Source: Amorphus orientalis (GTDB lineage Bacteria; Pseudomonadota; Alphaproteobacteria; Rhizobiales; Amorphaceae). Taken from it: DNA of 64,000 bases. A program made the position numbers and the translations under genes. Where the stretch lies: NCBI RefSeq assembly GCF_030814015.1, contig NZ_JAUSUL010000001.1, positions 1,578,001-1,642,000 on the forward strand, in the 5' to 3' direction. Shown one piece after another: positions 31,247-51,849 of this stretch (position 1 is its first letter; every line of letters begins with the position of its first letter). The notes beneath the pieces were generated by a model. The model saw nothing but the letters and a program-made list of their open reading frames with translations, was not told the DNA's origin and ran no database searches.

Positions 31247-32383
31247 TCAGCCGGTTTCGGGCGAGACGGCGGCAAGTCCGACCAGAAGCAGTGCCACCAG
31301 GTCGGCCTGGCGATGCGTGCCGGTCTTCTGGAAGAGGTTGCGCATGTGAAAGGCGACGGTCGTCTGCGAGATGCCGAACTCGCGGGCGATGTCCTCGCGC
31401 CGCTTGCCTTCGGCGAGCGCCAGCGCCAGCTGCGATTCCGCCGACGTCAGCCCGAACAGGGGAGCGATGAACGCGTCGGAGAAGGCGGGGCGGCGATCGG
31501 GGTCCGACAGGAAGACGATCGACGTCGGTCCTCCGTCTCCGGTCGCAGCCTCCTGCGGCAAGGCGCAGATGATCGCGAGCAGGTCGCGCCGGCCGGACGG
31601 ACGCGGCAGGCTGAGCCCGATCTGCTCCTCGTTTCCGCGCGCGGCCAGCTCGGCGACACGGCGCAAGGCTGCGCTCAGCCGTCCCGTCGCGTCCGGCGAC
31701 GCCGGTTGCAGCGTCGTCCCGATGCCGATCCCGTCGTCTTCCTCGGCCAGGCGCCTGGCGGCGCGATTGGCGAAGACGACCTGGCGCGACCGGTCGGTCA
31801 GCACGACCCCGACCGCAATCAGGTCGAGCGCGCCGGCGGCAGCGGCCGTCCAGTCCTCGCCGCCGCCCTGCAAGCCGCCGACGGCCCGCCTGGCGGTCTC
31901 CAGTTCGTCACGCACCTTCCCGCGCACGCGCCTGACCTGGCTGAGACGCGCCTCGATGCTCGCCAGCATCAGGTCGAAGTCGACCGGCTTCACCAGGTAG
32001 TCGTCAGCCCCGGCGAGCTTGCCCGACAGGATGTCGTCACGGCTGCTGAGGGCCGTCAGGAACACGAACGGCACGTCGGCCAGCTCGGGATGCTTCAGCC
32101 GTGCGGACTTCATCAGCTCGTAGCCGTCGAGGCGGGGCATGGTGATGTCGCACAGGATGAGGTCGGGGCGGGTCGTCTGGAGTTCCGTGAGGGCCTCGAG
32201 CCCGTCGGAGGCCTGACGCACATCGTATCCGCTCGAGGCGAGCTCTTCCGCGATGTCACGGCGAAGGTCGGCCTCGTCCTCGACGCAGAGGATGATCGGC
32301 CTGCCGGCGTCACTGGCACTGGATAGCACGGATTTGTCCTCGCATGGCCGCTGGCCGGACTGAGATTCGAGACTGACCGACAC
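31247..32383 (-). CDS. Response regulator: receiver, PAS-like and LuxR-type HTH domains
   Basis: The product has 378 residues. The receiver (about 29-150) has VEDE, phospho-acceptor D79 in LILCDITMPRLDG, and K in DDYLVKPVDF. A short coiled linker leads to a PAS-like domain (about 180-295, GVVLTDRSRQVVFANRAARRL). The C-terminal LuxR/GerE helix-turn-helix has FGLTSAESQLALALAEGK and REDIAREFGISQTTVAFHMR then NLFQKTG. It starts with GTG. It is divergent from the membrane-protein gene at 32545; the orphan sensor kinase at 34199 in the same locus is its probable partner, by position only. Confidence 0.9.
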   Translation of the reverse strand: MSVSLESQSGQRPCEDKSVLSSASDAGRPIILCVEDEADLRRDIAEELASSGYDVRQASDGLEALTELQTTRPDLILCDITMPRLDGYELMKSARLKHPELADVPFVFLTALSSRDDILSGKLAGADDYLVKPVDFDLMLASIEARLSQVRRVRGKVRDELETARRAVGGLQGGGEDWTAAAAGALDLIAVGVVLTDRSRQVVFANRAARRLAEEDDGIGIGTTLQPASPDATGRLSAALRRVAELAARGNEEQIGLSLPRPSGRRDLLAIICALPQEAATGDGGPTSIVFLSDPDRRPAFSDAFIAPLFGLTSAESQLALALAEGKRREDIAREFGISQTTVAFHMRNLFQKTGTHRQADLVALLLVGLAAVSPETG

Positions 32384-32544
32384 ATTTTCTCGCTATGGAG
32401 CCGGAGTCACGGGGTGTGATGCAGTGTCGTACGTCACGGCATTGACGATGCGCCGGTGCCTGTCCGTTCGGACGGGGACACGCACCCCATCCCCGGCTAA
32501 GGACCGACGTGAACGGCCCGCGGGCCACGGAGGAGAGAGCAGAG

Positions 32545-33528
32545 ATGTGGGATTTCTCGATTGCGCGGGCCCTCAGCCTGATGGTCCGGACGATGCCCTT
32601 CATCCTGTTGAGGATGGCGATCTATTTTGGCGCGGCGGTGGCCTACGTGCTCGTCACCGGCGTCGGCGCGGGCGTCGGATGGGGCGTCGGCGGGTTCGGA
32701 GACGCCGACTTCCAGGCGACCACGACGTTCTGGGGCGGGATCATCGGCTTCGGTGGCGTCGCCGCGGTGATGTATCTCCTGCGCAGCTACATCCTCTATA
32801 TCGTGAAGGCCGGGCACATCGCGGTGCTGGTGGAGCTGCTCGACGGCCGCGAGATGCCGCAGGGCCGCTCGCAGATCGGGCATGCAAGGCACGTCGTCAC
32901 CGAACGCTTCGGGCAGGCGAGCATCCTCTTCGGCGTCGACCGGCTGATCGCCGGCGTCATCCAGGCGATCACGGGCCTGGTGCGCGGCGTTCTCACGCTG
33001 GTGCCGATCCCCGGCGTGCAGCAGCTCGTCGGCGTCGCGCATGCGTTCCTGCGCATCGCGGTGGGCTTCGTCGACGAGGTGATCCTCGCTTATGCGATCC
33101 GCACCCGCTCGACCAATGCCTGGGAGTCCGCGCGCGAAGGGCTGGTCCTCTACGGCCAGAACTACAGGCCGATGTTCAAGAACGCCGCCTGGCTGGCCGT
33201 CTTCGTCTACGGCCTGTCCTTCCTGGTCTTCCTCGTCATGCTGGCGCCGGCGGCGCTTGCCGTCTACGTCATCCCGGGCGCCTGGTCGGCTGGCGGGCTC
33301 GTCTTCGCGCTCCTCTTCGCCTGGAGCGTCAAGGCGGCCCTTCTCGAGCCGTTCGCCATCACCTGCATGATGGAGGTTTATTTCCGGACGATCGAGGGAC
33401 AGGAGCCGGATCCGGCCTGGGATGCGAAACTCGAGCAGCTTTCCGGCAAGTTCCGCCGGCTGAAGGAGCAGGCGATGCAGGGCGGCACGGCTGCGCCGTC
33501 CGCGGACGCGCCGGCCCCCGCCGAGTAA
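32545..33528 (+). CDS. Multi-spanning inner-membrane protein, function unknown
   Basis: The product has 327 residues. Hydrophobic segments lie near 17-40, 58-85, 215-240 and 245-268. In between is an amphipathic helical region with a stretch of glycine/isoleucine (LIAGVIQAITGLVRGVLTLV) that may re-enter the membrane. The C-terminus is a charged cytoplasmic tail rich in Ala/Pro. I do not recognise a named family. GGAGAGAGCAGAG precedes the ATG. It opens the plus-strand locus of signalling and VWA genes and is divergent from the REC-LuxR regulator, suggesting that the regulator may control it. Confidence 0.75.
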   Translation: MWDFSIARALSLMVRTMPFILLRMAIYFGAAVAYVLVTGVGAGVGWGVGGFGDADFQATTTFWGGIIGFGGVAAVMYLLRSYILYIVKAGHIAVLVELLDGREMPQGRSQIGHARHVVTERFGQASILFGVDRLIAGVIQAITGLVRGVLTLVPIPGVQQLVGVAHAFLRIAVGFVDEVILAYAIRTRSTNAWESAREGLVLYGQNYRPMFKNAAWLAVFVYGLSFLVFLVMLAPAALAVYVIPGAWSAGGLVFALLFAWSVKAALLEPFAITCMMEVYFRTIEGQEPDPAWDAKLEQLSGKFRRLKEQAMQGGTAAPSADAPAPAE

Positions 33529-33626
33529 CACAGAACCATCGGCACGAATTTCTGCCCGGCCATGGACACGCGCGGCCGGTTTTGGTGTGCTTCGACGCGC
33601 GCATCATCGGCGCGTGGGGAGACGTG

Positions 33627-34202
33627 ATGCAGGCGAGAGGGAAGGATCCGGCGGCAAGGGGGTCGGGCCCGGGAGCCGCTGGCCTGCGGCGGCTTATGGT
33701 GCCGCTCGTCGTCGCACTGTCCGTTCTGTCGGTGTCGACCCCGCGCTCTGCGGAGGCTGCGTGCGACCTGCCGGAACCGACCGGAAAAGTCCTGCTGGAG
33801 ATTTCCGGGTCGATCGACTGCACCAATGACGGCGACACGGCGGTGTTCGATCGAGACGGGCTGACGGCCTTGCCGCAGCACACGCTGAAGACCACCACTG
33901 TCGTCACCGACGGTGTGAAGACTTTCCGCGGCTTCCGGATGCAGGACCTGCTGGACGCGGTCGGGGCGCACGGCGAAACGGCGGTGGCGCACGCCCTCAA
34001 CGACTATGTCGTCGACATCCCGCTGGACGACTTTTCCCGCTTCGAGGTGCTGGTGGCGCTGCGGATGGACGGCAAGCGGCTGACGGCGCGCGACAAGGGT
34101 CCGCTCTGGATCGTCTACCCGCGCGACCAGTACGCCGAGCTGCAGGACATCCGCTACGACTACCGATGGGTCTGGCAGCTCGACCGGCTGAAGATCCGAT
34201 GA
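33627..34202 (+). CDS. Exported molybdopterin-oxidoreductase-fold (SUOX-like) protein, sensor-associated
   Basis: The product has 191 residues, including a signal peptide (LMVPLVVALSVLSVSTPRSA then EA). The mature part has GLTALPQHTLKTTTVVTDG, FRGFRMQDLLDAVGA and DKGPLWIVYPRDQYAELQDI. These are hallmarks of the sulfite-oxidase/YedY molybdopterin-binding fold, here much shorter than the enzymes and without a clear Cys molybdenum ligand, so probably a ligand-sensing domain. GGGGAG precedes ATG 33627. Its stop overlaps the kinase start by ATGA, so it is probably an extracytoplasmic partner of that kinase. Confidence 0.75.
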   Translation: MQARGKDPAARGSGPGAAGLRRLMVPLVVALSVLSVSTPRSAEAACDLPEPTGKVLLEISGSIDCTNDGDTAVFDRDGLTALPQHTLKTTTVVTDGVKTFRGFRMQDLLDAVGAHGETAVAHALNDYVVDIPLDDFSRFEVLVALRMDGKRLTARDKGPLWIVYPRDQYAELQDIRYDYRWVWQLDRLKIR

Positions 34203-35629
34203 TCGGCGGCAGGAAGGCCCGGCTCGCCTTTTCCGTCTCAGGTGTCGCGATATTCGCATTCGTCATGCTGCTCGTCTTCGCGCTCGTCCGGCTCTGGGGG
34301 CCGGCGGCCGAGACGCGCCGCCACGTCGACAACAACATGCTGTGGGCGCTCTCCCAGGCGCATGCCGCGACGCTGCTTCTCGACAGCGCGGTGGCGCGGC
34401 GCGCGGGGGGCGTGCCCGGCGACGTGGCGCTCGAGCGGCGCTACAACGTGCTGCTGAGCCGCCTCAACCTGCTGACCCAGGGGCCGCAAGCCCGCTATCT
34501 GGCCGATCGCGGCTTTGCCGAACCTATCGAGAGGCGGAAGCAGGACGTACTCGCCCTGGATCCCCAGGTCTCCTCGCTGTCGGTGGGAGACGTCGAGCTG
34601 GCCGGCCGCATCCACGGCGTGCTGGGGCCTCTCGAACAACTGCTCGGCCGGGCTGCCAACAAGGCCATGGTCAGTCAGTGGAACGCCATCGGGGAACGGC
34701 TCGACGCAGAGCATTCCGCCATCGTTCAGGTGATCGCCTCGATCCTCGCCATCGCCGGGCTCGGCGGCATGATCTCCATCCTGATGGTGCGGGCCGTGCT
34801 CGCCAATCAGCAGGCGCAGCAGGCCCTGCGCCGGGAAACCGAGATGCGCGAGGCGTATCGCAGCTTCGTCGACCTGGTGTCGCATCAGTTCCGGACGCCG
34901 CTGTCGGTCATGGACGCCTCGATGCAGCGCATCCTGCGGCGCGGAGAGCTGATGCCGCGCGAGGAGATCGCGCAGCGCGTGCGCAGGATGCGCCACTTGA
35001 TCGGGGACCTGACGACGCTGATCGACACCACGCTCGATGGCATGCAGGCCGATGCCGGAAAGATCGAGGTTTGCGAGCAGGTCTGCGATCCGGTGGCGCT
35101 CCTGGAAAACGTCCGGCATCGACAGCTTGAGGCCACGCCGGGACGCCTGGTCGACCTGAACGTCGGTGCCAACGTGCCGCGCCGGGTGCTCAGCGATCCC
35201 GTTCTCGTCGAGCAGGTGCTCGCCAATCTCCTGTCGAATGCCATCAAGTATTCGCCGGAGGGCGAGCGCGTCGTCGTCACGCTGCAGGCTGATGGCGATT
35301 CGCTCGCCTTTTCGGTGCGGGACGACGGGATCGGCATTCCCGACGATGAGCAGGGGCAGGTGTTCAGCCGCTTTTTTCGTGCCCGCACCGCGGCCGGCTA
35401 TCCCGGCACCGGCGTCGGGCTCAACGTCTCGCGCAGGATCGCCGAAACGCTGGGCGGCTCGCTGAGCCTTCGCTCCAAGCAAGGGCTCGGCTCGACCTTC
35501 ACGCTCCAGCTGCCGCTCGTCCCCGCCGAGCTCGGCGAAGACCACGCCAGCGCCCCGCCCTCGGGTCGCAGCCACAAGACACGCCGGCAGCCCGTCCGAA
35601 CGAACGGGGCGGGCTGGGAGCGTCCGTAG
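34199..35629 (+). CDS. Membrane sensor histidine kinase
   Basis: The product has 476 residues. TM helices lie at about 11-30 and 175-197, enclosing a 140-residue all-helical periplasmic sensor. The HisKA box FVDLVSHQFRTPLSVMDAS holds H229. The ATPase domain shows LLSNAIKYSPEGE, RDDGIGIPDDEQ, FSRFFRA and GTGVGLNVSRRIAETLGG. A basic Arg/Pro-rich tail follows. It overlaps the SUOX-like periplasmic protein gene and has no regulator gene directly downstream; the REC-LuxR gene about 2 kb upstream on the other strand is the nearest candidate. Confidence 0.92.
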   Translation: MIGGRKARLAFSVSGVAIFAFVMLLVFALVRLWGPAAETRRHVDNNMLWALSQAHAATLLLDSAVARRAGGVPGDVALERRYNVLLSRLNLLTQGPQARYLADRGFAEPIERRKQDVLALDPQVSSLSVGDVELAGRIHGVLGPLEQLLGRAANKAMVSQWNAIGERLDAEHSAIVQVIASILAIAGLGGMISILMVRAVLANQQAQQALRRETEMREAYRSFVDLVSHQFRTPLSVMDASMQRILRRGELMPREEIAQRVRRMRHLIGDLTTLIDTTLDGMQADAGKIEVCEQVCDPVALLENVRHRQLEATPGRLVDLNVGANVPRRVLSDPVLVEQVLANLLSNAIKYSPEGERVVVTLQADGDSLAFSVRDDGIGIPDDEQGQVFSRFFRARTAAGYPGTGVGLNVSRRIAETLGGSLSLRSKQGLGSTFTLQLPLVPAELGEDHASAPPSGRSHKTRRQPVRTNGAGWERP

Positions 35630-35725
35630 TAGAGCCTCCTCAGCATCGGTTCGGCCGGCGGCGTGTCCGCGAGCCGGGCTGGAGTGCCGTTCGCGGCCGG
35701 CGAAGGGAGCCACGAGAAATCCACC

Positions 35726-36322
35726 ATGAGTGTCTGGTTCTGGGTGATCGGCCCCATTGTGCTGGTCATCGGCTATATTTGGTACGCGACCCTGATCCGG
35801 CGGCGGAACAGGGCTCAGGAGGCGCTGTCGTCCATCGACGTGCAGTTGCGCAAGCGCCACGACCTTCTGCCCAACATCCTCAAGCTCGCCGACCGCTTCA
35901 TGGCGCACGAGCGTGACCTGCTCACGCGGGTGACGGACCTGCGCAACCAGGCGCAGAAGCCCTACGACCCGAACCAGCAGGCGGAGGTGCGCGAGCATCT
36001 CGACGCGGAAGGTTCGCTCCAGGCCGGCGTCCGCCAACTTTTCGCGCTGGCAGAGAACTATCCGGAGCTGCGTTCCAGCGAGACGGTCGTGCAGGCGCAG
36101 GAGACGTTCAACGAGGTCGAGGGGCACATCTCCGCAGCGCGGCGCTTCTACAATTCCGCCGTCACCGACCTGAACAGCGCCATCCAGGTTTGGCCCGGCC
36201 CGCTCATCGCCGGCATCGCGGGTGTCCAGGCCATGCCGTTCTTCGAGATCGAGGACGAGGCGGTGCGCCGGCCGATCGACGCCGACAGCTACATCAACCT
36301 GCCGAAAGCCTCGACCGAGTGA
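35726..36322 (+). CDS. LemA family membrane protein
   Basis: The product has 198 residues. One N-terminal TM helix (about 3-22) is followed by RNRAQEALSSIDVQLRKRHD and LLPNILKLADRF, the LemA core, and ends with FNEVEGHISAARRFYNSAVT then DLNSAIQVWP. LemA proteins form helical bundles anchored in the inner membrane; their function is poorly known. It directly precedes a DUF3137 gene (14-base gap), a recurrent pairing in Gram-negative bacteria. Confidence 0.93.
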   Translation: MSVWFWVIGPIVLVIGYIWYATLIRRRNRAQEALSSIDVQLRKRHDLLPNILKLADRFMAHERDLLTRVTDLRNQAQKPYDPNQQAEVREHLDAEGSLQAGVRQLFALAENYPELRSSETVVQAQETFNEVEGHISAARRFYNSAVTDLNSAIQVWPGPLIAGIAGVQAMPFFEIEDEAVRRPIDADSYINLPKASTE

Positions 36323-36336
36323 GAATGAGGGGAAGA

Positions 36337-37386
36337 ATGAAGAGCGTGGCAAGCCGCGAAGAGACCGGATTCGACCGTGCCGACTTCGGTGCCTACTACG
36401 AGGCCGAGATTGCCCCCGATCTGGCGCAGATCGAGGGACGCCGCAAGCTCATGGCTTTCGGCGTCAGGGCGTTGTGGGGCCTCTCAGGCGTGGGGCTGCT
36501 GCTGTTCCTGTCGGCCGGCATGCTGGCGCCGAGCCTCGGGATGGACCGCGATACGCTCGGCTTCGCCGGCGGCGCGCTCCTGTTCGGGGGGATCGGCGGT
36601 GCGATCCTGCTCGGCAAGCTCGCGCGCGCTCCGTTCAAGCGGATCCTGGTGGGCCGGACGTGTGCCTTTTTCGGCCTCGACTACAAGACGAAAGGCTTCG
36701 ACTTCCCGATTGACGCTTTCCGCGACGCCGAGATCCTTCCGCGCTTCGACAAGCACCGGCTGCGCGACGGGATTTCCGGCAGGCATCGGGGCGTCGATAT
36801 CCAGATCTGCGAGGCTGTGCTGACGAGAGTCCGCGACAACAGCCGCGGCAATTCCATCGACAGGAAGAGCGAGGAAGCCTTCGATGGCCTGCTGCTGGCC
36901 TATGGCTTTGCCGAGCCCTTCAGCGGCGACACCGTGGTGCTGTCGGACATGACCTGGCTCGGCAACAAGCTGAAGGGGCTGACGCAGAGCGGCGAACGCG
37001 TGACGCTCGAGGATCCCGAGTTCGAGCGCCAGTTCGAGGTCTATTCCGACGATCAGGTCGAGGCGCGCTACCTGCTTCAGCCTCGTTTCATGGAGCGGCT
37101 GGTCTCGCTCGCCGGGCGGCTGAACGCCGGCAAGCGCATGTCGCTCGCCTTTCGCGGCAACCGTCTCCTGGTGGCGTTGCGAACGGACGCCGACTTCTTC
37201 GAGGGCGGTGCCGTGGGCAAGGACGCCACCGACCGCGAGCGGGCGGAAGAACTGCTCAGGGAAATCCAGATGATCTTCAACGTCGTCGACGTGCTCGACC
37301 TCGGCGAACGCCGCACCGGCGGCGAGGGTGGCAAGGGCGACGGCACGCGCGCGGGCGGGATCTCCGCCGCCTTTGCTGGCGGCTAG
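36337..37386 (+). CDS. DUF3137 membrane protein
   Basis: The product has 349 residues. Two adjacent TM helices (about 35-60 and 67-85) are followed by a large cytoplasmic domain containing FPIDAFRDAEILPRFDKHR, VLTRV, FDGLLLAYGF and DPEFERQFEVYSDDQVEARY, the pattern of DUF3137 proteins. Their role is unknown, and they are often next to LemA genes. ATG 36337 is preceded by AGGGGAAGA. An ATG at 36325 is also possible. Confidence 0.88.
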   Translation: MKSVASREETGFDRADFGAYYEAEIAPDLAQIEGRRKLMAFGVRALWGLSGVGLLLFLSAGMLAPSLGMDRDTLGFAGGALLFGGIGGAILLGKLARAPFKRILVGRTCAFFGLDYKTKGFDFPIDAFRDAEILPRFDKHRLRDGISGRHRGVDIQICEAVLTRVRDNSRGNSIDRKSEEAFDGLLLAYGFAEPFSGDTVVLSDMTWLGNKLKGLTQSGERVTLEDPEFERQFEVYSDDQVEARYLLQPRFMERLVSLAGRLNAGKRMSLAFRGNRLLVALRTDADFFEGGAVGKDATDRERAEELLREIQMIFNVVDVLDLGERRTGGEGGKGDGTRAGGISAAFAGG

Positions 37387-37428
37387 GCGATCCCGATGCG
37401 GAACCAGCGAACAGAAGGGGGAATCCAC

Positions 37429-39708
37429 ATGCTCCGAGCCATATGCCTCGGTCTCATCGCCTGCACGCTGACGCTTGGCGGTACGGGAAGCGCGCGGGCG
37501 GCGGATGACGTCATGGTCATCTTCGACGGGTCGAACTCGATGTGGGGCCAGATCGACGGCACCGCGAAGATCGAGATTGCGCGCGACGCGATGACCGAGC
37601 TTGTCGGGGCGTGGGACAAGGACACGAATCTCGGCCTGATGGCCTACGGCCATCGCCGCGAGGCGGACTGCTCGGACATCGAGACGATCATTCCGCCTCG
37701 CCCGATGGATCGGGACGCGTTCATGTCGAACGTCGAGGGCATCGTGCCGCGCGGCAAGACCCCTCTCACCTCCGCGATCGAGCAGGCGGCGGAGACGCTG
37801 TCCTATCGCGACAACCCGGCGACCGTTGTCGTCATCTCCGACGGGATCGAGAGCTGCAACCGCGATCCGTGCGCGCTCGCCGGACAGCTCAAGCGCAGCG
37901 GCGTGCGCTTTACCGCCCACGTCATCGGCTTCGGCCTCGACAGCGCGGAGGAGCAGAAGGGCCTTGCCTGCATTGCCGAGGAGACGGGAGGCCGGTTCCT
38001 GACCGCGGCGAACGCCGGTGAGTTGCGCGATGCCTTCAAGGAAGTGGGCTCCGAAGTCACGCAGGCAGCGCCGGAACCCGAGCCCGAGCCGGAGCCGACC
38101 GAGGACATCGAGGTGACGGCTCCGGCAAGCATTCCGGCGGGTGGCGACTTCGAAGCCTCGTGGAGCAAGACGCTCGACGACAGCGACATCCTGACGATCG
38201 TGCCGACCGGAGCCGACGACGACCAGATCGGCAACCATGAGCGGGCGAGCGACGGCAATCCGGTCACGCTTCGGGCGCCGGCCGAAACCGGCATGTACGA
38301 GGTGCGCTATGTCTCGAACGAGGGGCGCGAGGTGCTGGGCTCCGCCTCCGTCGAGGTGACGGATCCCCAGGTCGAGATTTCGGCGCCCGACAGCGTGACG
38401 CGGGGCGGCGAGCTCGAGGTGTCCTGGAGCGGCACGGTGAACGGCCGGGATATCCTGACGATCGTGCCGGCGGGCTCGGACGACGACCGGATCGGCAACC
38501 ACGAGCGGGTGAACGACGGCAATCCGGTGACGCTGCGGGCGCCGGCCGAGCCCGGCATGTACGAGGCGCGCTACGTGCTCGATGAGGGGCGCCGCGTGCT
38601 TGCCTCGGTGCCGGTCGAGGTGACCGACGCGCAGGTGCAGGTTTCTGCGCCGGACAGCGTGGTTGCGGGAAGCTCGTTCGAGGTGTCGTGGAGCGGCACG
38701 GTGAACGGCCGGGATATCCTGACGATCGTGCCGGCGGGCTCGGACGACGACCGGATCGGCAACCATGAGCGGGTGAACGACGGCAAGCCGGTGACGCTGC
38801 GGGCGCCGGCCGAGCCCGGCATGTACGAAGCGCGCTATGTGCTCGACGAAGGGCGCCGTGTGCTGGCCTCGGTGCCGGTCGAGGTGACCGACGCGCAGGT
38901 CCAGATTTCTGCTCCGGACAGCGTGGTCGCGGGAAGTTCATTCGAGGTGTCGTGGAGCGGCACGGTGAGCGGCCGCGACATCCTGACGATCGTTCCCATG
39001 GGGGCGGAAGCGGACGAGATCGGCAACCACGAACGGGTGAACGACGGCAACCCGGCGAAGCTGCGGGCTCCCGGCAAGCCCGGCCTCTATCAGGTGCGCT
39101 ACGTGCTCGACGAGGGCCGGCGTCCGCTTGCCGATGCGACCGTCGAGGTGACGGAGCCGGACGTCTCGGTGTCGGCCACGGACACGGTCCGGGCCAAGGG
39201 AGAGATTGAGGTCAGCTGGACCGGTACCGCGCCGAGCGGACGCGACATTATCACGGTGGTTCCGGCGGGTTCCGAGGAGGACGAGATCGGCAATCACGAG
39301 CGGGTCGGCGACGGCGACGCCACCACGCTGCGTGCGCCCGAGAAGCCGGGCCTCTACGAAGTGCGCTACGTGCTCGACGAAGGCCGGCGGATGCTGGCTA
39401 GCACGCAGGTGGAGATCGTGCCGGAGACGGCGGCCCTCGATGCCGGCGCCTCGCTTGACGTGCCGAAGACGGCCAGCCCCGGGGAGGAGATCCAGGTGGG
39501 CTGGACGGGAGGTTCCGACAGCGCCGACCAGCGGATCGCGCTCGCCAAGGCTGACCAGGCCGACTTCACATGGATCGAGGTGCACAAGGTCGGCAACGAG
39601 CCGCCGATGAGCTTCACCATGCCGGACGCGCCGGGATCTTACGAGTTTCGGTTCCTCGACATCCCGGGGCAGGCGGTGCTGAGCCGGGCGATAATCGAAG
39701 TGAAGTAG
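37429..39708 (+). CDS. Secreted von Willebrand A protein with tandem 88-residue repeats
   Basis: The product has 759 residues. A signal peptide (ends GSARA) is followed by a VWA domain (about 27-215) with the metal-binding DGSNSMWG motif, GLMAYGHRREADCSDIE and VVISDGIESCN. An acidic Glu-Pro linker leads to five similar repeats of about 88 residues (DNA units begin at 38107, 38371, 38635, 38899 and 39163) plus a divergent sixth. Each repeat has SWSGT, RDILTIVP, IGNHER, LRAP, GMYEARYVLDEGRRVLAS and looks like an all-beta domain. It is probably a periplasmic or surface protein that binds a protein or polymer. GGGGGAA precedes the ATG. It follows LemA and DUF3137 genes. Confidence 0.88.
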   Translation: MLRAICLGLIACTLTLGGTGSARAADDVMVIFDGSNSMWGQIDGTAKIEIARDAMTELVGAWDKDTNLGLMAYGHRREADCSDIETIIPPRPMDRDAFMSNVEGIVPRGKTPLTSAIEQAAETLSYRDNPATVVVISDGIESCNRDPCALAGQLKRSGVRFTAHVIGFGLDSAEEQKGLACIAEETGGRFLTAANAGELRDAFKEVGSEVTQAAPEPEPEPEPTEDIEVTAPASIPAGGDFEASWSKTLDDSDILTIVPTGADDDQIGNHERASDGNPVTLRAPAETGMYEVRYVSNEGREVLGSASVEVTDPQVEISAPDSVTRGGELEVSWSGTVNGRDILTIVPAGSDDDRIGNHERVNDGNPVTLRAPAEPGMYEARYVLDEGRRVLASVPVEVTDAQVQVSAPDSVVAGSSFEVSWSGTVNGRDILTIVPAGSDDDRIGNHERVNDGKPVTLRAPAEPGMYEARYVLDEGRRVLASVPVEVTDAQVQISAPDSVVAGSSFEVSWSGTVSGRDILTIVPMGAEADEIGNHERVNDGNPAKLRAPGKPGLYQVRYVLDEGRRPLADATVEVTEPDVSVSATDTVRAKGEIEVSWTGTAPSGRDIITVVPAGSEEDEIGNHERVGDGDATTLRAPEKPGLYEVRYVLDEGRRMLASTQVEIVPETAALDAGASLDVPKTASPGEEIQVGWTGGSDSADQRIALAKADQADFTWIEVHKVGNEPPMSFTMPDAPGSYEFRFLDIPGQAVLSRAIIEVK
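38107..39162 (+). repeat. Four tandem 264-bp repeats within the VWA gene
   Basis: Units start at 38107, 38371, 38635 and 38899, each exactly 264 bp. Units 2 and 3 are almost identical at DNA level over most of their length, and unit 4 is nearly as close in its first half. A more diverged fifth unit follows. The pattern indicates recent expansion and probable slippage or recombination. Confidence 0.85.
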
Positions 39709-39942
39709 GCGAGGGCGGGAGCCCGCGTGGCGATTTCCGACGGAAGCGTATCGGCAACGGACGGATCGAGCTCCGCGCGGAGCAGGTGGCGCTGCAGATC
39801 CGCGATGTTCGCGGCGAGGGACGTGACGATCTCCTAAGTGCCCAGAGCCGAGCAGCTGATGGGTGCACCTGCACAACGACAGCCCCGCGACCTGCGCGTC
39901 AGGTCCGCGCTTGAGCCAATGAACAGCAAGGGAAGCCAAGAC

Positions 39943-41259
39943 ATGCAGCGATGGATGATGCTAGCGACGCTGGGTGCGCTCTGCCTCTCCGCCGCACCGG
40001 CGAGTGCGCAGCCGGAGACCTCGAGCGAGACGACCATGATCGTGCTCGACGGATCCGGCTCGATGTGGGGCCAGATCGACGGCACGTCCAAGATCGAGAT
40101 CGCTCGAGAGGCGATCGGACGGCTGGTCGCCGACTGGCCGGAGGGCCGGGCTCTCGGGCTGATGGCCTACGGGCATCGCCGGGAAGCCGACTGCGGCGAC
40201 ATCGAAACCCTGGTCGCGCCCGGCCCGCTCGACATGGATACCGTCAACGCGGCCGTGTCCGAGGTAACGCCGCGCGGCAAGACTCCGATCGGCGGCTCGG
40301 TGCGTGCCGCCTCCGATGCGATCGGCGACGCGATGTCCTCGTCGGTTATCGTCGTCACCGACGGGTTGGAGAATTGCGGCGCCGATCTGTGCGCTCTCGG
40401 CGATGAACTGGCGGCCGGTGGCACCGGTCTCAAGACACATGTGATCGGCTTCGATATCGCAGAGAGCACCGACCAGCTTGCGTGTCTGGCCGAGGCGACC
40501 GGCGGTCGCTACCTCGCGGCCGAGGATGCCGAAAGCCTGACCGGCGCGCTGCAGGAGGTCGCCGCGGAGCCTGAACCGGAGCCGGCCGGACCGATCGCGG
40601 TCGACGAGTTCGATCGCGCCGAACTCGGAGCGGGATGGGAAATCGCGCACCCCGCTCCGCAGAACTATGTGCTGGACGGTGGCAAGCTCGTGGCGCTGAC
40701 CGCTCGGCCCGGCAACATCGACGATCCGGAGCAGCCGAATGTCTTCCGCTGGCGTGAGGCGGAGCTTCCGGAGGGTGACTGGGAGATCGCAGCCGAGTTC
40801 AGGGCCGAACTGGGTGAAGTGCAAACACTCGGCGGCCGTAAGGCGGTGGTCGAGGTGGCGTTGTTCTCCGATCCGGAAAACAACATCGTCGCGCGGATCT
40901 ACCGGCAGGGCAATTCCAACGATGACATGCACCTGCAGATCACCAGCACTTCAGGTGGCAACGCAACCAGCGATTCCGTTGAGATCGCCGGCGACATTCG
41001 TGGCTACGACCTCGCGCGCATTCTCACCGACTTCAAGGAGAAGGGCGTCCGCCTGGTGCTTGCCAAGCAAGGACGGGAGTATCGAGCCCGATTGGAGATG
41101 AATGGCTGGGCGATGACCGACGGGGGGCCGGAGGTGATCGAGACCGAGCCGGTGCAGGTGCTGCGGGCGGCCGGCGATCCGGCCCTTTTTGCAGGTACGT
41201 GGGGCGATAAGCAGACCGTGGTGGAGTTCGACCGGATCGAGATCCTGGCGGCCGAATAG
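39943..41259 (+). CDS. Secreted von Willebrand A protein with beta-rich C-terminal domain
   Basis: The product has 438 residues. A signal peptide ending ASAQ is followed by a VWA domain (about 28-210) with DGSGSMWGQIDGTSKIEIAR, GLMAYGHRREADCGDIE and VVTDGLENCG. This domain is clearly paralogous to the VWA domain of the preceding gene. After a Glu-Pro linker comes a different domain (about 220-438) with DEFDRAELGAGWEI, EGDWEIAAEF, NNIVARIYRQGNS and an ending VVEFDRIEILAAE, resembling a jelly-roll sugar- or polymer-binding sandwich. AGGGAAG lies upstream of ATG 39943; 39919 is an alternative. Confidence 0.85.
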   Translation: MQRWMMLATLGALCLSAAPASAQPETSSETTMIVLDGSGSMWGQIDGTSKIEIAREAIGRLVADWPEGRALGLMAYGHRREADCGDIETLVAPGPLDMDTVNAAVSEVTPRGKTPIGGSVRAASDAIGDAMSSSVIVVTDGLENCGADLCALGDELAAGGTGLKTHVIGFDIAESTDQLACLAEATGGRYLAAEDAESLTGALQEVAAEPEPEPAGPIAVDEFDRAELGAGWEIAHPAPQNYVLDGGKLVALTARPGNIDDPEQPNVFRWREAELPEGDWEIAAEFRAELGEVQTLGGRKAVVEVALFSDPENNIVARIYRQGNSNDDMHLQITSTSGGNATSDSVEIAGDIRGYDLARILTDFKEKGVRLVLAKQGREYRARLEMNGWAMTDGGPEVIETEPVQVLRAAGDPALFAGTWGDKQTVVEFDRIEILAAE

Positions 41260-41383
41260 GTCGGTTGGGGGAAGGCGGAAGTTCGAAGTCCGGGAACCCG
41301 CCCGATGGCCCCGGCCGCGGCGCCGGCCGCGGGGATCCCAATCGCGAAAGGGCACGACTGACAACAAATCCTGGAGAGCCTCG

Positions 41384-42367
41384 ATGAAATCATTCCCCGC
41401 AAGCCTTGCCGCAACGGGCACCCTTGCCGTGCTGTTGGTGCCGGCCTGTGCTTTGGCCCAAAGCCCGTCAGCGGATCTGCCCGCCCTGGATGCACTCGGC
41501 CCCGGCCAGTATTCGCTCTGGGTCAGCGGAGCCGCTGAGGCCGAAGCGACGACCGTCCCGGTGACGACGGCCGATGCCAGTACGCCGAAAACGGGGATCA
41601 TCTCCGGCGAGGCCAGTCAGCGCGCGCGCTACACCTATGACGACTTTGCCCCGGACGCGACCAACGAGACCGGCCCTTTCGTGATCTCGATGGCGCTCGG
41701 GTCCGCCCTGGTGGAGATGGAAGGGGTGGACAACCCCGGCGTCACCGTCGGTCTTCATGTGACCGACGCGGTGGAGCCCGGCATGCACGCGGTCGAAGAG
41801 GCCTTTTTCGACGTCGGACCGAGCGCGGTTCCGCTCGCCGTCTCCGCGGTCGCCGGTCCGCTCGGTGGCCGGCCGACCCCGTTTGCATCGGATCCGGAAG
41901 GCGCGGTGGAGATCGTGCGGATGGATCGGGACGGCGCCACCGGCCGCTTCGCCCTAACGATGGGCCCGCTGATGGGTGACGGCGATGCAATCACCGTGCG
42001 CGGTGCCTTCAAGGGAATCCCTTATGCGCCCGGCCTGGAGGCGTCGATCAGCGGCAGCGGAAAGCTCGAAGGGCCCGCGTTCGACACGGTCAAGACGGAC
42101 GTGAGCGGCGCCGGCCCTGCCTTCTCCCTCTCGACCGGGTTCCACGACGAGCCAGCGGCGCACATTGCTTTTTCCGAAGAGCCGGAGATCGGTACCTACG
42201 AGCCGGGCAACGACGGCCTGCTGACGGCGCGGGTCAACGGCGAGCCCGCCGCCGGGTCCGTCACGATCACCCGCACGGGCGAGAGCTACGGGGCGGAATT
42301 CGATCTTCGCGCGGACGCGGAAGGGGCTGGCATCAGCGGCTCTTTCGACCACGCCCGGCCGGAATAG
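41384..42367 (+). CDS. Secreted protein of unknown function
   Basis: The product has 327 residues. A signal peptide ends ACALA; a cysteine precedes the cleavage site, but the lipobox is poor. The mature protein is acidic, rich in Ala/Gly/Val and probably all-beta, with no catalytic motif that I recognise. GGAGAGCC precedes the ATG. It lies 124 bases after the second VWA gene on the same strand, so it is likely part of the same export-linked locus. Confidence 0.7.
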   Translation: MKSFPASLAATGTLAVLLVPACALAQSPSADLPALDALGPGQYSLWVSGAAEAEATTVPVTTADASTPKTGIISGEASQRARYTYDDFAPDATNETGPFVISMALGSALVEMEGVDNPGVTVGLHVTDAVEPGMHAVEEAFFDVGPSAVPLAVSAVAGPLGGRPTPFASDPEGAVEIVRMDRDGATGRFALTMGPLMGDGDAITVRGAFKGIPYAPGLEASISGSGKLEGPAFDTVKTDVSGAGPAFSLSTGFHDEPAAHIAFSEEPEIGTYEPGNDGLLTARVNGEPAAGSVTITRTGESYGAEFDLRADAEGAGISGSFDHARPE

Positions 42368-43589: not shown

Positions 43590-43698
43590 GGAGGGCTCCT
43601 TCAGTGCCGCGTGCCGTGAATGGCGCCGGCGGACCAGCACCACGGTCCGACGAGTCCGGCCCCGCGCAGGCCTTCTGTCAAGCCTACCGCCGCGGAGT

Positions 43699-43712
43699 TT
43701 GCGAAAGCACAA
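43699..43712. promoter_or_regulatory. Candidate NnrR/DNR box upstream of pseudoazurin
   Basis: TTGCGAAAGCACAA is a near-symmetric TTG-N8-CAA element centred about 84 bases before the pseudoazurin ATG, in the region shared with the divergent Crp/Fnr gene. It differs little from the nirK box (TTGCAGAACCACAA on the minus strand). Confidence 0.68.
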
Positions 43713-43789
43713 AAAAGACGGCCGCTGCAGGTCTACTCCTTCCTCAACGGCAAGACGCCGTCGTGCTCCAGACAGGAAGGACCAGAACC

Positions 43790-44233
43790 ATGAACAAGAC
43801 AATCGCAGCCGTGGCGCTTGGAGCGCTCGTTGGCTTCGCCGGCGCGGCCAACGCCGCCGAATTCGAGATCAAGATGCTGAACAAGGGCGAAGCCGGCGTG
43901 ATGGTGTTCGAGCCCGCCTATGTGAAGGCCGCGCCCGGCGACACCGTCCGGTTCGTCGCGACCGACAAGGGACACAACGCGGAGACCATCAAGGGCATGG
44001 TTCCCGATGGCGCGCAGCCGTTCAAGGGCAAGTTCAACGAAGAGGTCGTCGTGACCCTCGATCAGGAAGGCATCTACGGCATCAAATGCATGCCCCACTA
44101 CGCCATGGGCATGGTCGCGGTCATCGAGGTCGGCGAGCCCACGAACCTCGCCGAGGCGCAGGACGTGAGGCATCCGGGCAAGGCCAAGACGGTCTTCGCC
44201 GACATCTTCTCCACCCAGGTGGCGGCGAAATAG
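43790..44233 (+). CDS. Pseudoazurin, blue copper electron carrier
   Basis: The product has 147 residues. A signal peptide ends ANAA, and the mature protein starts EFEIKMLNKGEAGVMVFEPA. The type 1 copper ligands are H in DKGHNAE, and C, H and M in IKCMPHYAMGM. It carries electrons in the periplasm from the cytochrome bc1 complex to NirK, encoded in this same cluster. AGGAAGG precedes the ATG. An NnrR-like box lies upstream, and the gene is divergent from the Crp/Fnr regulator. Confidence 0.96.
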   Translation: MNKTIAAVALGALVGFAGAANAAEFEIKMLNKGEAGVMVFEPAYVKAAPGDTVRFVATDKGHNAETIKGMVPDGAQPFKGKFNEEVVVTLDQEGIYGIKCMPHYAMGMVAVIEVGEPTNLAEAQDVRHPGKAKTVFADIFSTQVAAK

Positions 44234-44307
44234 CCGGGCCCGGCCGCGGACCGGCAGGATCGCGCAGTCGCCGGGCCGGGGCCAATCGGAAATCAGGTCC
44301 CAATCCC

Positions 44308-44343
44308 GCCGTCCGGGGGACGAAGCTCTCGGTCCCGGACGGC
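44308..44343. terminator. Bidirectional hairpin between pseudoazurin and napC
   Basis: A 10-bp stem (GCCGTCCGGG/CCCGGACGGC) carries a 16-nt loop, immediately after the napC stop and 75 bases after the pseudoazurin stop. The genes converge here, so it may end both transcripts. Confidence 0.6.
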
Positions 44344-44344
44344 G

Positions 44345-45031
44345 CTACCCGTCGATGGTTGCCGCGTAGCGCTTGAGTTCATCGATCCGGCGTGCCTGAG
44401 GCAGCGGCTCGTCGGCTGTCCCGTGCGGCGGTTGCCAGCCGGGCTCCACGCCCTCCATGTTCGGAAGCTGATGGGCGATGCCCTTGTGGCAGTCGATGCA
44501 GGTGGCTTTGCCGGACATCAGGTAGCGCTGGTGGATCTCCGCGGCACGTTCGGTCTGCTTGGAGAGATCCATCGCCACTTCCGAATGGCAGTTCCGGCAT
44601 TCCAGGCTGTCGTTGGCCTTGAGCCGCGCCCATTCCCGCTTCGCCATCGCAAGGCGATGGTCGAGAAACTTCCGCCGCGTGTCGATAGAGCCGAAGATGT
44701 GGCCCCAGACCTCCTTGGAGGCCTGCATCTTGCGCGCGATCTTGTCGGTCCAGTCGTGCGGCACATGGCAGTCGGGGCAGGAGGCCCGAACGCCGGACCG
44801 GTTGGTGAAGTGGACCGTCCTGGTCAGCTCCTCGAACACGTTGCTCTCCATCTCGTGGCAGGAGATGCAGAACTGTTCGGTGTTGGTCATTTCCAACGCG
44901 GTGTTGAACGCGCCCCAGAAGATGACGCCTCCGACGAAACCGCCCAGCGTGAGGAACCCAAGGCTGAGCTTTCCGGCCGGCGAGGAGACGATCCGCCAGG
45001 CCTGGAGAAGAAAGGCTTTGAGGCGGCCCAT
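44345..45031 (-). CDS. napC: Membrane-anchored tetraheme cytochrome c NapC
   Basis: The product has 228 residues. An N-terminal TM anchor (about 20-42) is followed by four heme motifs: CISCH, CPDCH, CRNCH and CIDCH. NapC/NirT cytochromes take electrons from quinol in the membrane and pass them to NapB and NapA. The C-terminal [16 protein letters not shown] is typical. It is the last nap gene, three bases after napB, and a hairpin follows. Confidence 0.96.
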
Positions 45032-45034
45032 CTC

Positions 45035-45526
45035 CTACTCATCCCCGGCTTTGCCGACACCGAGATCACTCATGTCGACGAAGGTGTTGCCGACCAGCGG
45101 CTGAACGTCGGCCTGAGGCACATGACACTCGGTGCAGAAGTAGCGACGCGGCGACACGTCAGCGAGCATCTGGCCTTCGCGGTCCATGTAGTGGGTCACG
45201 CTGATCATCGGCGCGCCCGAAGCCTGGGTGAATTCCCGCTTGTGGCAGGTCATGCAGCGGTTGGCGTTGACCGTGAGCTGGTAGCCTTCGATCGAGTGCG
45301 GGATCACCGGAGGCTGCTCGGGATAGGCCCGCATCTTTCGCACGTCATCGGTCACCCAGCGGGGCAACGGCTCCGCCGCCGAGGGTTCGGATGGGGGCGT
45401 CGGCCCGACGAGTTCTTCGGGTCCCATCTGGGCGAGGGCCGCCGTCGCCAACAGCAGAGTTGCGGCGGCGGCGACGATCGGCAGCCGATGCCGGGCGATC
45501 AGGCGGGAACGATCTTGACCGCGCAT
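45035..45526 (-). CDS. napB: Periplasmic nitrate reductase diheme subunit NapB
   Basis: The product has 163 residues. A signal peptide (ends AALAQ) is followed by [20 protein letters not shown], heme sites CMTCH and CTECH, and [17 protein letters not shown]. It transfers electrons from NapC to NapA in the periplasm. The start lies 28 bases inside the end of napA, consistent with coupled translation. Confidence 0.96.
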
Positions 45527-48000
45527 TTCTTGAAATCCGTCTGCTTGGAGATGGGATCGGTCGCGTCGAGCGTCGTGCGGTTGATCAACTGGCTGGCGTC
45601 GAACCAGGGCACGAAGATCACTCCGGAGGGCATCCGGTTTCGGCCGCGGGTCTCTACCCGGGAGCGGATCTCGCCGCGCCGGGATATGATGCGCACTTCG
45701 GCGCCCTGGTTGAGGCCGCGCTCACGGGCATCGACAGCGTTCATGAAGCAGCGGGCGCCGGGGAAAGCCTTATAGAGTTCCGGCACGCGCAGCGTCATCG
45801 AGCCGGAATGCCAGTGCTCGAGGACCCGGCCCGTCACAAGCCAGAGGTCGTAGTCCTCGTCCGGGCTTTCCGCAGGCGGTTCGTAGGGAACGGCGAGGAT
45901 CACAGCTTTGCCATCGGGCTTGCCGTAGAAATGCACGCCGCGACCGGGCTCGACGTAAGGGTCGTAGCCCTCGCGGAACCGCCACCGCGTCTCGTCGCCG
46001 TCGACGACGGGCCAGCGCAGGCCGCGCACTTCATGGTAGCGGTCGTAGGGTGCGAGATCGTGGCCATGGCCGCGGCCGAAGGCGGCGTACTCCTCGAACA
46101 GGCCCTTCTGGATGTAGAAGCCGAAGTCGTCGGCTTCGGCATTGGCATAGTCGGGATCGATCTCCTCAAGCGGATACCGGTCGACATTGCCGTTGGCGAA
46201 AAGCACCTCGTAGAGGGTCTTCCCCCGATAGTCGGGATTGGCGTCGAGAATCTCTGACGGCCAGACCTCGTCCGTGGTGAAGCGCTTGGAAAACTCCACC
46301 AGCTGCCAGAGGTCCGATCGGGATTCCCCCGGGGCGTCGACCAGCTGATGCCAGGTGTGGGTGCGCCGTTCGGCATTGCCGTAGGCCCCTTCCTTCTCCA
46401 CCCACATGGCCGCAGGCAGGATGAGATCGGCGGCCATCGCGGTGACGGTCGGATAGGCATCCGAAACGACGATGAAATTCTCGGGATTGCGATAGCCCGG
46501 ATAGGTCTCGTTGCCGCTGTTGGGCGCTGCCTGCAGGTTGTTGTTGACCTGGATCCAGTAGAAGTTGAGCTTTCCGTCCTTCAGCATCCGGTCCTGCAGC
46601 ACCGCGTGGTAGCCCGGCTTGTCAGGCAACAGGCCGTCCGGAAGCTTCCAGATCTCTTCCGCGTGGTGACGATGCTCCGGGTTGGTGACCACCATGTCGG
46701 CCGGCAGCCGATGGGCGAACGTACCGACTTCACGCGCCGTCCCGCAGGCGGACGGCTGGCCGGTGAGCGAGAACGGGCTGTTGCCCGGCTCGGAGATTTT
46801 GCCGGTCAGAAGGTGGATGTTGTAGACCATGTGATTGGCCCACACGCCCCGGACATGCTGATTGAAGCCCATCGTCCAAAGCGACATCACCTTCCGATCC
46901 GGGTCGGCGTAGAGCTCGGCCAGTTCTTCCAGAAAGCCCGCTTCGACGCCGGAAAGCTCGGAGACCCGGTCCAGGGTGTATTCCGAGACCAGCTCACGGA
47001 AAGCCTCGAAATCGATCGGCTCCATGTCGCCGGGATTGTCGGCCCCCGTCGCTTCCTGCTGAAGCGGATGTTCCGGTCTGAGCCCGTAGCCGATGTTGGT
47101 GGCGCCGCGCATGAAGGTCGTGTTCTTGCGCACGAACTCCTCGTTCACCCGGCCGGTCTCGATGATGTGGTTGGCGATGTAGTTGAGGATCGCCAGATCG
47201 GTGCCGGGGCGGAAGATGATCGGGATGTCGGCCAGATCCATCGAGCGGTGGGTATAGGTCGACAGGACGGCGCAGCGCACGTGCTCGTGGCCAAGCCTGC
47301 GGTCGGCAAGCCGGGTCCAGAGGATCGGATGCATCTCCGCCATGTTGGAGCCCCAGAGGACGAAGGCGTCGGCATGTTCGAAGTCGTCGTAGCACCCCAT
47401 CGGCTCGTCGATACCGAAGGCGCGCATGAAGGTGGTTGCGGCGGATGCCATGCAGTGACGGGCATTCGGGTCGAGGTTGTTGGACCGGAAGCCCGCCCGC
47501 ATCAGCTTGGAGGCGGCGTAGCCCTCGAAGATCGTCCACTGGCCGGAACCGAACATCCCGATCGCCGAGGGACCCTTGTCGGCAAGCGTCGCTTTGGCCT
47601 TCTCAGCCATGACGTCGAAGGCCTCGTCCCAGGAGACGGGCTCGAACTCGCCGTCCTTGTCGTAGACGCCGTTGCGCTTGCGCAGGAGCGGCGTGGTGAG
47701 ACGGTCCTCGCCATACATGATCTTCGACAGGAAGTAGCCTTTCACGCAGTTGAGGCCGCGATTGACCTCCGCCTGCATGTCGCCATGGGTGGCGACCACT
47801 TGGCCTTCCTTCACGCCGACCATGACACCGCAGCCTGTCCCGCAGAAGCGGCACGGAGCCTTGGACCATTTGATCTGGAGTGACTCGACGCCACCGGTGA
47901 CCGGCTGGGCGTCAGCCGGCAGCGATATCCCGGCGGTGGCCGCGGCGACGGCGGCGGCCTGTGCCTTGAGGAGGTCGCGGCGATTGATGTCTGCCGTCAT
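45499..48000 (-). CDS. napA: Periplasmic nitrate reductase catalytic subunit NapA
   Basis: The product has 833 residues, full length. A twin-arginine signal ([19 protein letters not shown]) directs export of the folded protein. The 4Fe-4S motif is [18 protein letters not shown] with a later Cys in LNCVKG. The molybdenum-ligand Cys lies in ARHCMASAA, with the bis-MGD contacts around. It reduces nitrate to nitrite in the periplasm. It lies between napD (two bases upstream) and napB in the order napEFDABC. Confidence 0.97.
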
Positions 48001-48002
48001 GC

Positions 48003-48260
48003 TCAGATGGCCTCCGTGTCAATGATCTGTTCGAACACCATGTTGGCCGCGATCACGCCGTTGATCCCGGCGATCGCGTTCAGCCGATTTCCCAACTCAC
48101 CAGCGGATTTGCCTTCCAGCACCACGATGACCCGGCCGCTTTCGGCGGCATGAACCTCTGTCGCTTCCATCGCGGCGATCTCGGCTGCCACCGCGTTCAT
48201 GCACTCCGGGCGCGTTATGACCACGGCACTTGAGACGTGATGCGCGTTGGGATCAGGCAT
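48003..48260 (-). CDS. napD: NapA maturation chaperone NapD
   Basis: The product has 85 residues and opens [20 protein letters not shown], the family's first strand and helix. NapD binds the Tat signal of NapA and delays export until the cofactor is in place. The start at 48260 is inside the end of napF (8-base overlap), and the stop is two bases from napA. Confidence 0.9.
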
Positions 48261-48771
48261 CGGCGGGCTCCGTCGGCTCGGTGGACACCGAAATCGCATC
48301 GACGGGACAGGGCGCGATGCATGCGCCGCAACCCGTGCAGCGTTCGGCATCGATTTCCGGAAGGAACGGGCCGCCGATCCGCGGGCGGAGCGTGACCGCC
48401 TCGGAAGGGCAGGCGTCCCGGCAGGTCATGCAGGCGATGCCCGCCTGGACGAGGCAGGTGTCCGAAATCTCTACCGTGTGCGGGAAGGTCGGGGGTCCGG
48501 TGTCTTCGAATACCGGCTCCGGACATGCCTCGGCGCAGCCACCGCAGAAGACGCATTCGCCGATCGAAAAATCCACGCCGGGTACTTCCTCGACCAGCCG
48601 GATGATGCCGGTCGGGCATGCGTCCACGCAGGCGCCGCATCCGGTGCAGGCTTCGATCCAGTCGGATCGTACTCCGGGAGGTGCGATTGCAGGTGGTGCG
48701 ACGTGCGCCGTGGTCGCCGTTCGTCCGCCGGTCAGAAAGGCCCTGCGGCTGAGCGTCGACGCGGTCGCCAT
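48253..48771 (-). CDS. napF: Iron-sulfur protein NapF
   Basis: The product has 172 residues. Four ferredoxin-like Cys clusters are visible (CTGCGACVDACP, CVFCGGCAEACP, CMTCRDACP and CTGCGACIAPCP). The N-terminus has SRRAFLTGG, an RR element in a short non-cleaved leader typical of NapF. It is a cytoplasmic protein thought to help assemble or load iron-sulfur into NapA. Confidence 0.94.
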   Translation of the reverse strand: MATASTLSRRAFLTGGRTATTAHVAPPAIAPPGVRSDWIEACTGCGACVDACPTGIIRLVEEVPGVDFSIGECVFCGGCAEACPEPVFEDTGPPTFPHTVEISDTCLVQAGIACMTCRDACPSEAVTLRPRIGGPFLPEIDAERCTGCGACIAPCPVDAISVSTEPTEPADA

Positions 48772-48772
48772 A

Positions 48773-48961
48773 TCAGCCCCCCGGTGGTCCGGGTGGTCCG
48801 AAGACCATCTGCCACATCCACACGAGGAAACCGTAGCCGCCGACGACGGCGACGGCCACGACCGGCCAGATCAGAAAGGCGAGGACAACGAACGCGATCA
48901 GCTCCGCTCGGCGCGAAGCCTGAGGCACGGCGTCCGGTGATGCGGATGCATCTTCGGTCAT
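48773..48961 (-). CDS. napE: Small membrane protein NapE
   Basis: The product has 62 residues. A short polar N-terminus precedes RRAELIAFVVLAFLIWPVVAV, which runs into a single TM helix, and the end WQMVFGPPGPPGG is the NapE signature. Function unknown; it is found at the head of nap operons in alpha- and gammaproteobacteria. GGGAGGAGG precedes ATG 48961. The 244 bases upstream to nnrS contain the operon promoter but no clear TTG-N8-CAA box. Confidence 0.92.
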   Translation of the reverse strand: MTEDASASPDAVPQASRRAELIAFVVLAFLIWPVVAVAVVGGYGFLVWMWQMVFGPPGPPGG

Positions 48962-49187
48962 GGCCTCCTCCCGTCCCGACAGGGGCGCCACGACCTGGTT
49001 CAGGCGGACGCGTCCTTCCGTCAGGCTAGGTTGAAACTAGACGAATTCGAGCTCCGTTCATACCCCCGGGAGAGTTCGGAGGAGCCTGCCCCCCGAACCC
49101 TTTCGTGCTCGACGGAGCCGTTCATCGGGGAGAATACGACCGTGAAACCAATGGCTTGAGTGACTTTATGGAGGTTGTGCCCCGCCG

Positions 49188-49211
49188 GCCTGACCAGAAT
49201 TCTGGTCAGGC
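49188..49211. promoter_or_regulatory. 24-bp perfect palindrome at the nnrS end, upstream of nap
   Basis: Two 12-bp arms meet with no spacer (left arm GCCTGACCAGAA, right arm its exact complement reversed). The element overlaps the nnrS stop codon and lies 227 bases before napE. No T-tract follows in either direction. It could terminate nnrS, or be an operator for the nap operon. Confidence 0.55.
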
Positions 49212-50474: not shown

Positions 50475-50636
50475 GAGGGTCTCCAGACGGTCGGAGGATG
50501 GGCAGCGCGGGCGCCGGTCGAACCACCCGGGAGTGGTGCTGCGGGGGGCTCGGCACGGCTGTGGCGAGCGAGGCGGACGCCGGAAAGCCGGTCGGCAGGT
50601 TGGGGACGGTGCTGTCGACAGGTCGGTCCCAAGCGA

Positions 50637-50663: not shown

Positions 50664-50679
50664 GTTTGACGTGTCCGCA

Positions 50680-51783: not shown

Positions 51784-51849
51784 CTTCTCTCTCCTTCGAA
51801 TGAGGCGGTTTCGATGGAGGGAAGCTAGGCCCGCACCGGCGACCCTTCT

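Follow-up and report, generated by a model that had tools for sequence, protein, structure and literature searches.

Proteins of the PruR family are periplasmic, lack the molybdenum-binding cysteine and are often annotated as molybdopterin oxidoreductases; their partners are either DcpA, which acts in cyclic di-GMP signalling, or a TorS/BaeS-like kinase (PruR-DTB systems), and the periplasmic domain of the partner carries a conserved WX7E motif (PMC13259868). In its accessible portions that review details the cyclic di-GMP branch of Agrobacterium, where PruR governs attachment, and names no target genes for the kinase branch. Here we describe a nine-gene locus of Amorphus orientalis that contains a PruR-kinase pair. 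It occupies positions 31247-42367 of a 64-kb stretch (contig NZ_JAUSUL010000001.1, positions 1,578,001 to 1,642,000), which we call the window and whose numbering we use, and it encodes a REC-PAS-LuxR response regulator (RR), a membrane protein without a named family (MEM), the PruR-type protein, a sensor histidine kinase (HK), a LemA-family protein, a DUF3137 protein, two exported proteins with VWA domains (VWA1 and VWA2) and a further exported protein (SEC). We consider it probable that a sensory two-component system of the pterin type here controls envelope proteins as a single regulon.

The locus resembles the PruR-DTB systems of the review in that the gene of an exported PruR-type protein forms a two-gene operon with an overlapping TorS-like kinase gene and the periplasmic tryptophan is kept. 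It departs from them in that the window's clade has alanine in place of the WX7E glutamate, and in the linked REC-PAS-LuxR regulator, conserved operator, MEM and VWA genes; the review text does not mention VWA or LuxR. With PruA-PruR-DcpA of Agrobacterium tumefaciens it shares the PruR subunit and presumably the sensing step, whereas here the signal goes out through a histidine kinase and response regulator rather than a cyclic di-GMP cyclase/phosphodiesterase, and the targets differ. TorS, like the kinase in our proposal, receives information through its helical periplasmic domain from a separate periplasmic protein, TorT, although TorT has a periplasmic-binding-protein fold and PruR the SUOX fold. 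VWA systems of the MoxR/BatA type likewise have a VWA domain with a metal-ion-dependent adhesion site (MIDAS); VWA1, in contrast, joins a signal peptide to immunoglobulin (Ig)-like repeats, and a Pfam scan of the nine genes found no MoxR-type ATPase, as a first-pass annotation of this DNA had said. Finally, LemA-DUF3137 pairs elsewhere are adjacent and co-oriented, as here, where unlike them the pair is followed by VWA1-VWA2-SEC and preceded by the cassette operator. PruR-DTB pairs, LemA, DUF3137 and VWA domains are therefore already known; the open-access literature searched yielded no account of these parts combined, of MEM or of the operator.

Results

All nine contiguous genes of the first-pass annotation are confirmed by open reading frame and Pfam calls, with RR (31247..32383) on the minus strand, divergent from the remaining eight, as it is from MEM in many relatives. 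RR matches Response_reg (87 bits), PAS_4 (26 bits, cut-off 23) and GerE (41 bits). HK (34199..35629, plus strand), directly 3' of pruR and by family a DTB-type sensor with a helical periplasmic domain, matches HATPase_c (105) and, slightly below the 26.9 cut-off, HisKA (26.4), with TorS among its best NCBIfam core matches. The phosphorylation aspartate, the kinase histidine and the N-box are all present. The annotation had also coupled a short exported SUOX-fold protein to the kinase; the coupling stands, reinforced by an ATGA overlap between the stop of the one gene and the start of the other (34199-34202), while the protein itself is PruR-like rather than an enzyme.

This correction is drawn from homology. 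The gene (33627..34202, plus strand; alternative start 33696) encodes 168-191 residues, depending on the start, with a hydrophobic N-terminal segment ending in AEA that we read as an export signal. Pfam assigns it to Oxidored_molyb at 31 bits with partial coverage only. A profile of 21 relatives matches the "Pterin Binding Protein" entries 7kos, 7kou, 7rkb, 7kom and 7kp2 of the PDB over nearly the whole domain (E 2e-52 to 4e-34), as against E 0.001 or worse for molybdenum-cofactor enzymes (sulfite oxidases). No cysteine is conserved among the 21 sequences, which keep the ALNDY and WQ motifs and with them the pterin-site Asn, Tyr and Trp, as well as an Asp; the residue roles are those given in PMC13259868. 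We therefore place the protein, by its sequence relationships, in the periplasmic pterin-binding PruR family. Could it nevertheless be an enzyme that uses a molybdenum cofactor, or a redox partner, with the locus belonging to the adjacent denitrification region? The Pfam label and the nap, nnrS and pseudoazurin genes that come next at 43-52 kb would suit such a reading, but the conserved molybdenum cysteine is absent, the best relatives are PruR and not YedY or sulfite oxidases, and in other genomes unrelated genes lie beside the cassette defined below, so that we regard it as very improbable. As a separate observation, conjugative plasmids of E. coli and Klebsiella (L167 and L168) carry the gene of a PruR-like protein overlapping that of a hybrid histidine kinase, beside helix-turn-helix and type IV secretion system/relaxase genes; neither the cassette operator nor the WX7E motif was found in these two loci.

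MEM (32545..33528, plus strand) is a polytopic membrane protein with no match in Pfam, NCBIfam, PDB, PHROG or PADLOC searches, and because it has no named family we chose it as the anchor of a recurrence search. Its structure predicted from the single sequence (mean predicted local distance difference test [pLDDT] score 52) gave no meaningful fold match, and no relatives were found in viral contigs. A likeness to choline-transporter-like proteins was considered but was unsupported by Pfam and PDB profile searches. Distant relatives occur in haloarchaea (Natrononativus, Natronococcus), in one locus (L089) adjoining histidine kinase genes.

MEM is present in 35 of 249 genomes of the order, and in 4 of 385 genomes sampled from the class; 87 plasmid records also carry it, chiefly from Pseudosulfitobacter (62), Roseibium, Labrenzia, Paracoccus, Nitratireductor, Sulfitobacter, Maritalea and Roseovarius. 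Five families, RR, MEM, PruR, HK and VWA1, form a cassette that recurs across several families of this order and among plasmids of Rhodobacterales and Hyphomicrobiales. PruR-HK-RR lies within 10 kb of MEM at 7 of the 36 MEM loci in the order, against about 0.09 expected. PruR-like genes at large are found in 82 of 199 genomes of the order; the cassette's own subfamily (>235 bits; next best 199) is found in 7, all of which have MEM too, side by side with it in six. Gene maps reveal three contexts: loci with MEM only, which are basal in the tree; MEM-VWA pairs whose regulator is AraC-type or a REC-less LuxR; and 17 loci, the window included, that join PruR-HK-RR to MEM, some having VWA and some not. 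The first-pass annotation would have called the locus a chance arrangement were its nine families not found together beyond close relatives. The five core families do recur, in distant genomes and on plasmids; LemA-DUF3137 mostly occurs by itself, the association of VWA2 is loose, and no relative of SEC was found. The cassette is absent from the genus's one other genome, where synteny is broken and an empty site was not found, and it does not occur complete elsewhere in the family. This absence is what a chance arrangement in one genome would predict, but the cassette recurs in distant genomes and on plasmids, its proteins co-diverge and its operator is conserved, all of which contradicts that explanation and leaves it a negligible probability.

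In the MEM tree every VWA- or two-component-linked protein falls within one clade (support 98/98). The window's MEM pairs with that of G126, a genome of another family (99/93), inside an eight-locus two-component clade (100/99) with plasmid members. The MEM of G183, from the same family, sits in the other subclade, a distribution that argues for horizontal spread. Distances among the other proteins follow those of MEM (Mantel r: RR 0.68, PruR 0.62, HK 0.73, VWA 0.87), and RR follows HK (0.81), with permutation p <=4e-4 throughout and shared ancestry adding to the r values. About 9.8 kb is shared at 94-97.5% DNA identity between Paracoccus denitrificans HAMBI_2443 and a Pseudosulfitobacter pseudonitzschiae plasmid (L083 6472-16227 and L084 6400-15960); its ends coincide with the cassette, and IS110-type transposases flank it in the Pseudosulfitobacter plasmid. 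This stretch represents one recent transfer, and the cassette moves on plasmids between marine and soil bacteria.

Comparison of the 300 bp 5' of MEM revealed an inverted repeat shared across loci, a candidate operator of about 20-26 bp, CCCCSTYCRWWYGRASGGGG, which stands 5' of genes for MEM, VWA, PruR, RR or secreted proteins. An initial weight matrix derived from 14 MEM-upstream sites matched unseen sites before VWA genes (L057 4405, L078 23672, L129 5512), before genes of exported proteins (L078 18318, L082 8131, L132 12717), before PruR (L077 11519, L083/84 9315) and, at window position 35588, 5' of LemA. The unseen sites in L057, L077, L078, L082, L083 and L129 and the one 5' of LemA scored 24-31 bits, compared with a null maximum of 14.2 over 2.1 million positions of other loci. 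In a symmetrised leave-one-out analysis the best site reached at least 21.7 bits in 18 of 18 loci with this RR; 47 further loci, among them the MEM-VWA loci under other regulators, did not exceed 13.2. The 18 do not count as independent observations, being related to one another and in part nearly copies (L083/L084). Most sites lie 36-125 bp 5' of the next start, and for MEM typically 64-86 bp. The repeat might instead be the site of another regulator, or a conserved promoter or attenuator, with the two-component system acting elsewhere. Such a reading draws on the G+C-rich, inverted-repeat character of the sites; against it, the sites accompany this RR in every one of its loci, are missing from MEM-VWA loci with an AraC-type or REC-less regulator, and precede genes of different families. 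We judge it improbable and favour an operator for RR.

In the window, site 1 (GGTGCCTGTCCGTTCGGACGGGGACA, 32455..32480) lies in the divergent RR-MEM region, 77 bp 5' of MEM, a position like that in relatives, and site 2 (GCAGCCCGTCCGAACGAACGGGGCGG, 35587..35612; 21.7 bits leave-one-out) lies within the 3' end of HK, about 126 bp 5' of LemA. Because these sites precede both MEM and the LemA-DUF3137-VWA1-VWA2-SEC set, the nine genes plausibly make up one regulon; for that set, the operators argue for the same control in this genome. A 12-mer found twice in the window, TGTCCGTTCGGA, was not above chance at two mismatches; the common motif is the longer inverted repeat. Separately, in G157 (L175 13120) an operator follows RR, 5' of short exported-protein candidates and, by eye, near an L,D-transpeptidase-like gene.

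LemA (35726..36322, plus strand; Pfam 137 bits; a hydrophobic N-terminal helix by sequence) and DUF3137 (36319..37386, plus strand; Pfam 119 bits; start at 36319, 36325 or 36337), both membrane proteins, are looser partners of the cassette. The locus might accordingly be two unrelated neighbours, a PruR-HK-RR-MEM(-VWA1) cassette with an independent LemA-DUF3137(-VWA2-SEC) envelope operon downstream. That the LemA-DUF3137 pair usually stands without the other genes in the class lends this some weight, as do the lack of any relative found for SEC and the occurrence elsewhere of relatives of the VWA2 C-terminal domain. What speaks against it is that VWA1, a core cassette gene, sits between DUF3137 and VWA2, that the second operator-like site stands just 5' of LemA, that LemA-DUF3137 adjoins the cassette again in L014 and a VWA1-type protein in L015, and that 5 of 9 genomes with DUF3137 carry MEM, above expectation (Fisher p 0.003; 0.013 without this genome). 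We consider two separate units unlikely, though less so than any other alternative, and prefer the single regulon.

The description of VWA1 (37429..39708, plus strand) and VWA2 (39943..41259, plus strand) as secreted VWA proteins is upheld by their signal peptides, by VWA/VWA_2 matches above the Pfam cut-offs and by intact MIDAS residues (DxSxS, T, D) in both; it overlooked six repeats of about 88 amino acids (38104-39705; DNA period 264 bp) that follow the VWA domain of VWA1. From a six-row alignment of these repeats an all-beta Ig-like domain was predicted (mean pLDDT 92), with best structural matches to SKICH (Z 10.7), the Bap BSP domain (Z 9.7) and other Ig-like domains, matches that indicate an Ig-like sandwich and not a function. 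VWA2 ends in an unnamed C-terminal domain. In relatives, further small exported proteins of three families (A, B and C) without Pfam names lie 3' of MEM-VWA. SEC (41384..42367, plus strand) occupies that cargo position in the window; it has no Pfam family, no relative in 249 genomes or in plasmids, and no detected homology to families A, B or C. Exported VWA domains combined with Ig-like repeats suggest adhesion or envelope work.

Discussion

Building on the computed gene content, PruR family membership, recurrence, co-divergence, mobility and motif conservation, we propose the following scheme. A periplasmic pterin would bind the exported PruR-type protein, which would dock on the DTB-type kinase of the overlapping gene, at its helical periplasmic domain, two steps that family membership suggests. 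The kinase would then phosphorylate or dephosphorylate the divergent RR, consistent with the gene order and the intact residues, and RR would bind the inverted repeat about 70 bp 5' of MEM and here also 5' of LemA, as the strict co-occurrence of site and regulator suggests. From the operator positions, signal peptides and domains, expression of MEM and of the LemA-DUF3137-VWA1-VWA2-SEC set should follow, so that a membrane protein and exported VWA/Ig-repeat proteins would reach the surface of the cell or its periplasm and there probably serve attachment or envelope remodelling. The role of these products is the weakest step of the scheme. The first-pass annotation had proposed an undescribed envelope-sensing or surface-assembly system: the grouping is real, its sensing half, a PruR-DTB pair of the pterin type, is partly described already (PMC13259868), and the envelope role is one that we infer.

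Several observations weigh against a single pterin-controlled regulon. In the window's clade the periplasmic motif of HK keeps the tryptophan and has Ala for Glu (WALSQAHAA in the window), even though WX7E is reported as conserved in DcpA/DTB partners and is intact in L126, in L083/L084 and in the non-MEM relatives L169-L171 (Paracoccus PD1222, Rhizobium and Sulfitobacter are among those that keep it); by homology the PruR-HK pair is thus of PruR-DTB type with one family-defining motif altered, and not a strict DTB member. Pterin control is not essential to the MEM-VWA pair, because several MEM-VWA loci (L079, L080, L058, L087, L134, L135 and L139) have a REC-less LuxR or AraC-type regulator in place of PruR-HK-RR, and in G157 a PruR-HK-RR set of the same subfamily does not have MEM beside it. 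As to the operator, no site of the set scores lower than the one 5' of the window's MEM (16.1 bits leave-one-out); an IUPAC scan of the whole window found 2 sites against 0.55 expected, a mild enrichment only; and 0.77 Mb of the same genome held one further site, of 22.3 bits, inside a LysR open reading frame. Scores near 21 are therefore not unique genome-wide, and the operator argument rests on position and conservation. LemA-DUF3137 adjoins the cassette in only two loci and at different places, after HK in the window and after RR in L014. Finally, no anchor, secretion machine or phenotype links the VWA proteins to attachment.

A bolder version of the scheme, which we hold tentatively and with less conviction than the regulon itself, is that this is a mobile system in which an extracellular pterin signal, through PruR, the two-component system and a dedicated operator, switches a MEM-VWA machine. 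MEM would then be a new polytopic family that handles or anchors exported VWA/Ig-repeat proteins at the envelope, the secreted cargo would be exchangeable, and LemA-DUF3137 would be a module added in this genome. Since PruR-type sensors are widespread, the locus may be of use beyond this species: for the PruR kinase branch it offers a candidate response regulator and a candidate operator together with a defined set of targets, and its carriage on plasmids makes the cassette accessible in laboratory isolates. It also defines MEM as a conserved membrane protein that belongs to no named family and whose divergence parallels that of exported VWA/Ig-repeat proteins.

Searches of the locus for sigma-70 promoters, terminators and Rfam families yielded nothing useful. 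PADLOC-DB defence models gave 0 matches to seven window proteins (all but RR and HK) and three cargo proteins, and phage families gave no match either. Directly 3' of the locus, at 43604-52000, is a denitrification-type block (pseudoazurin, NapC, NapB-like, NapA, NnrS, multicopper oxidase, Crp/Fnr and DUF1858), which looks acquired too, because no close NapA was found in the family's nine other genomes. Upstream, a DAHL-domain sensor histidine kinase is encoded at 10893-13412, and the region from 12.5 to 23 kb is partly syntenic with C16 of G183, in which a few kb separate it from the MEM-VWA pair of that genome.

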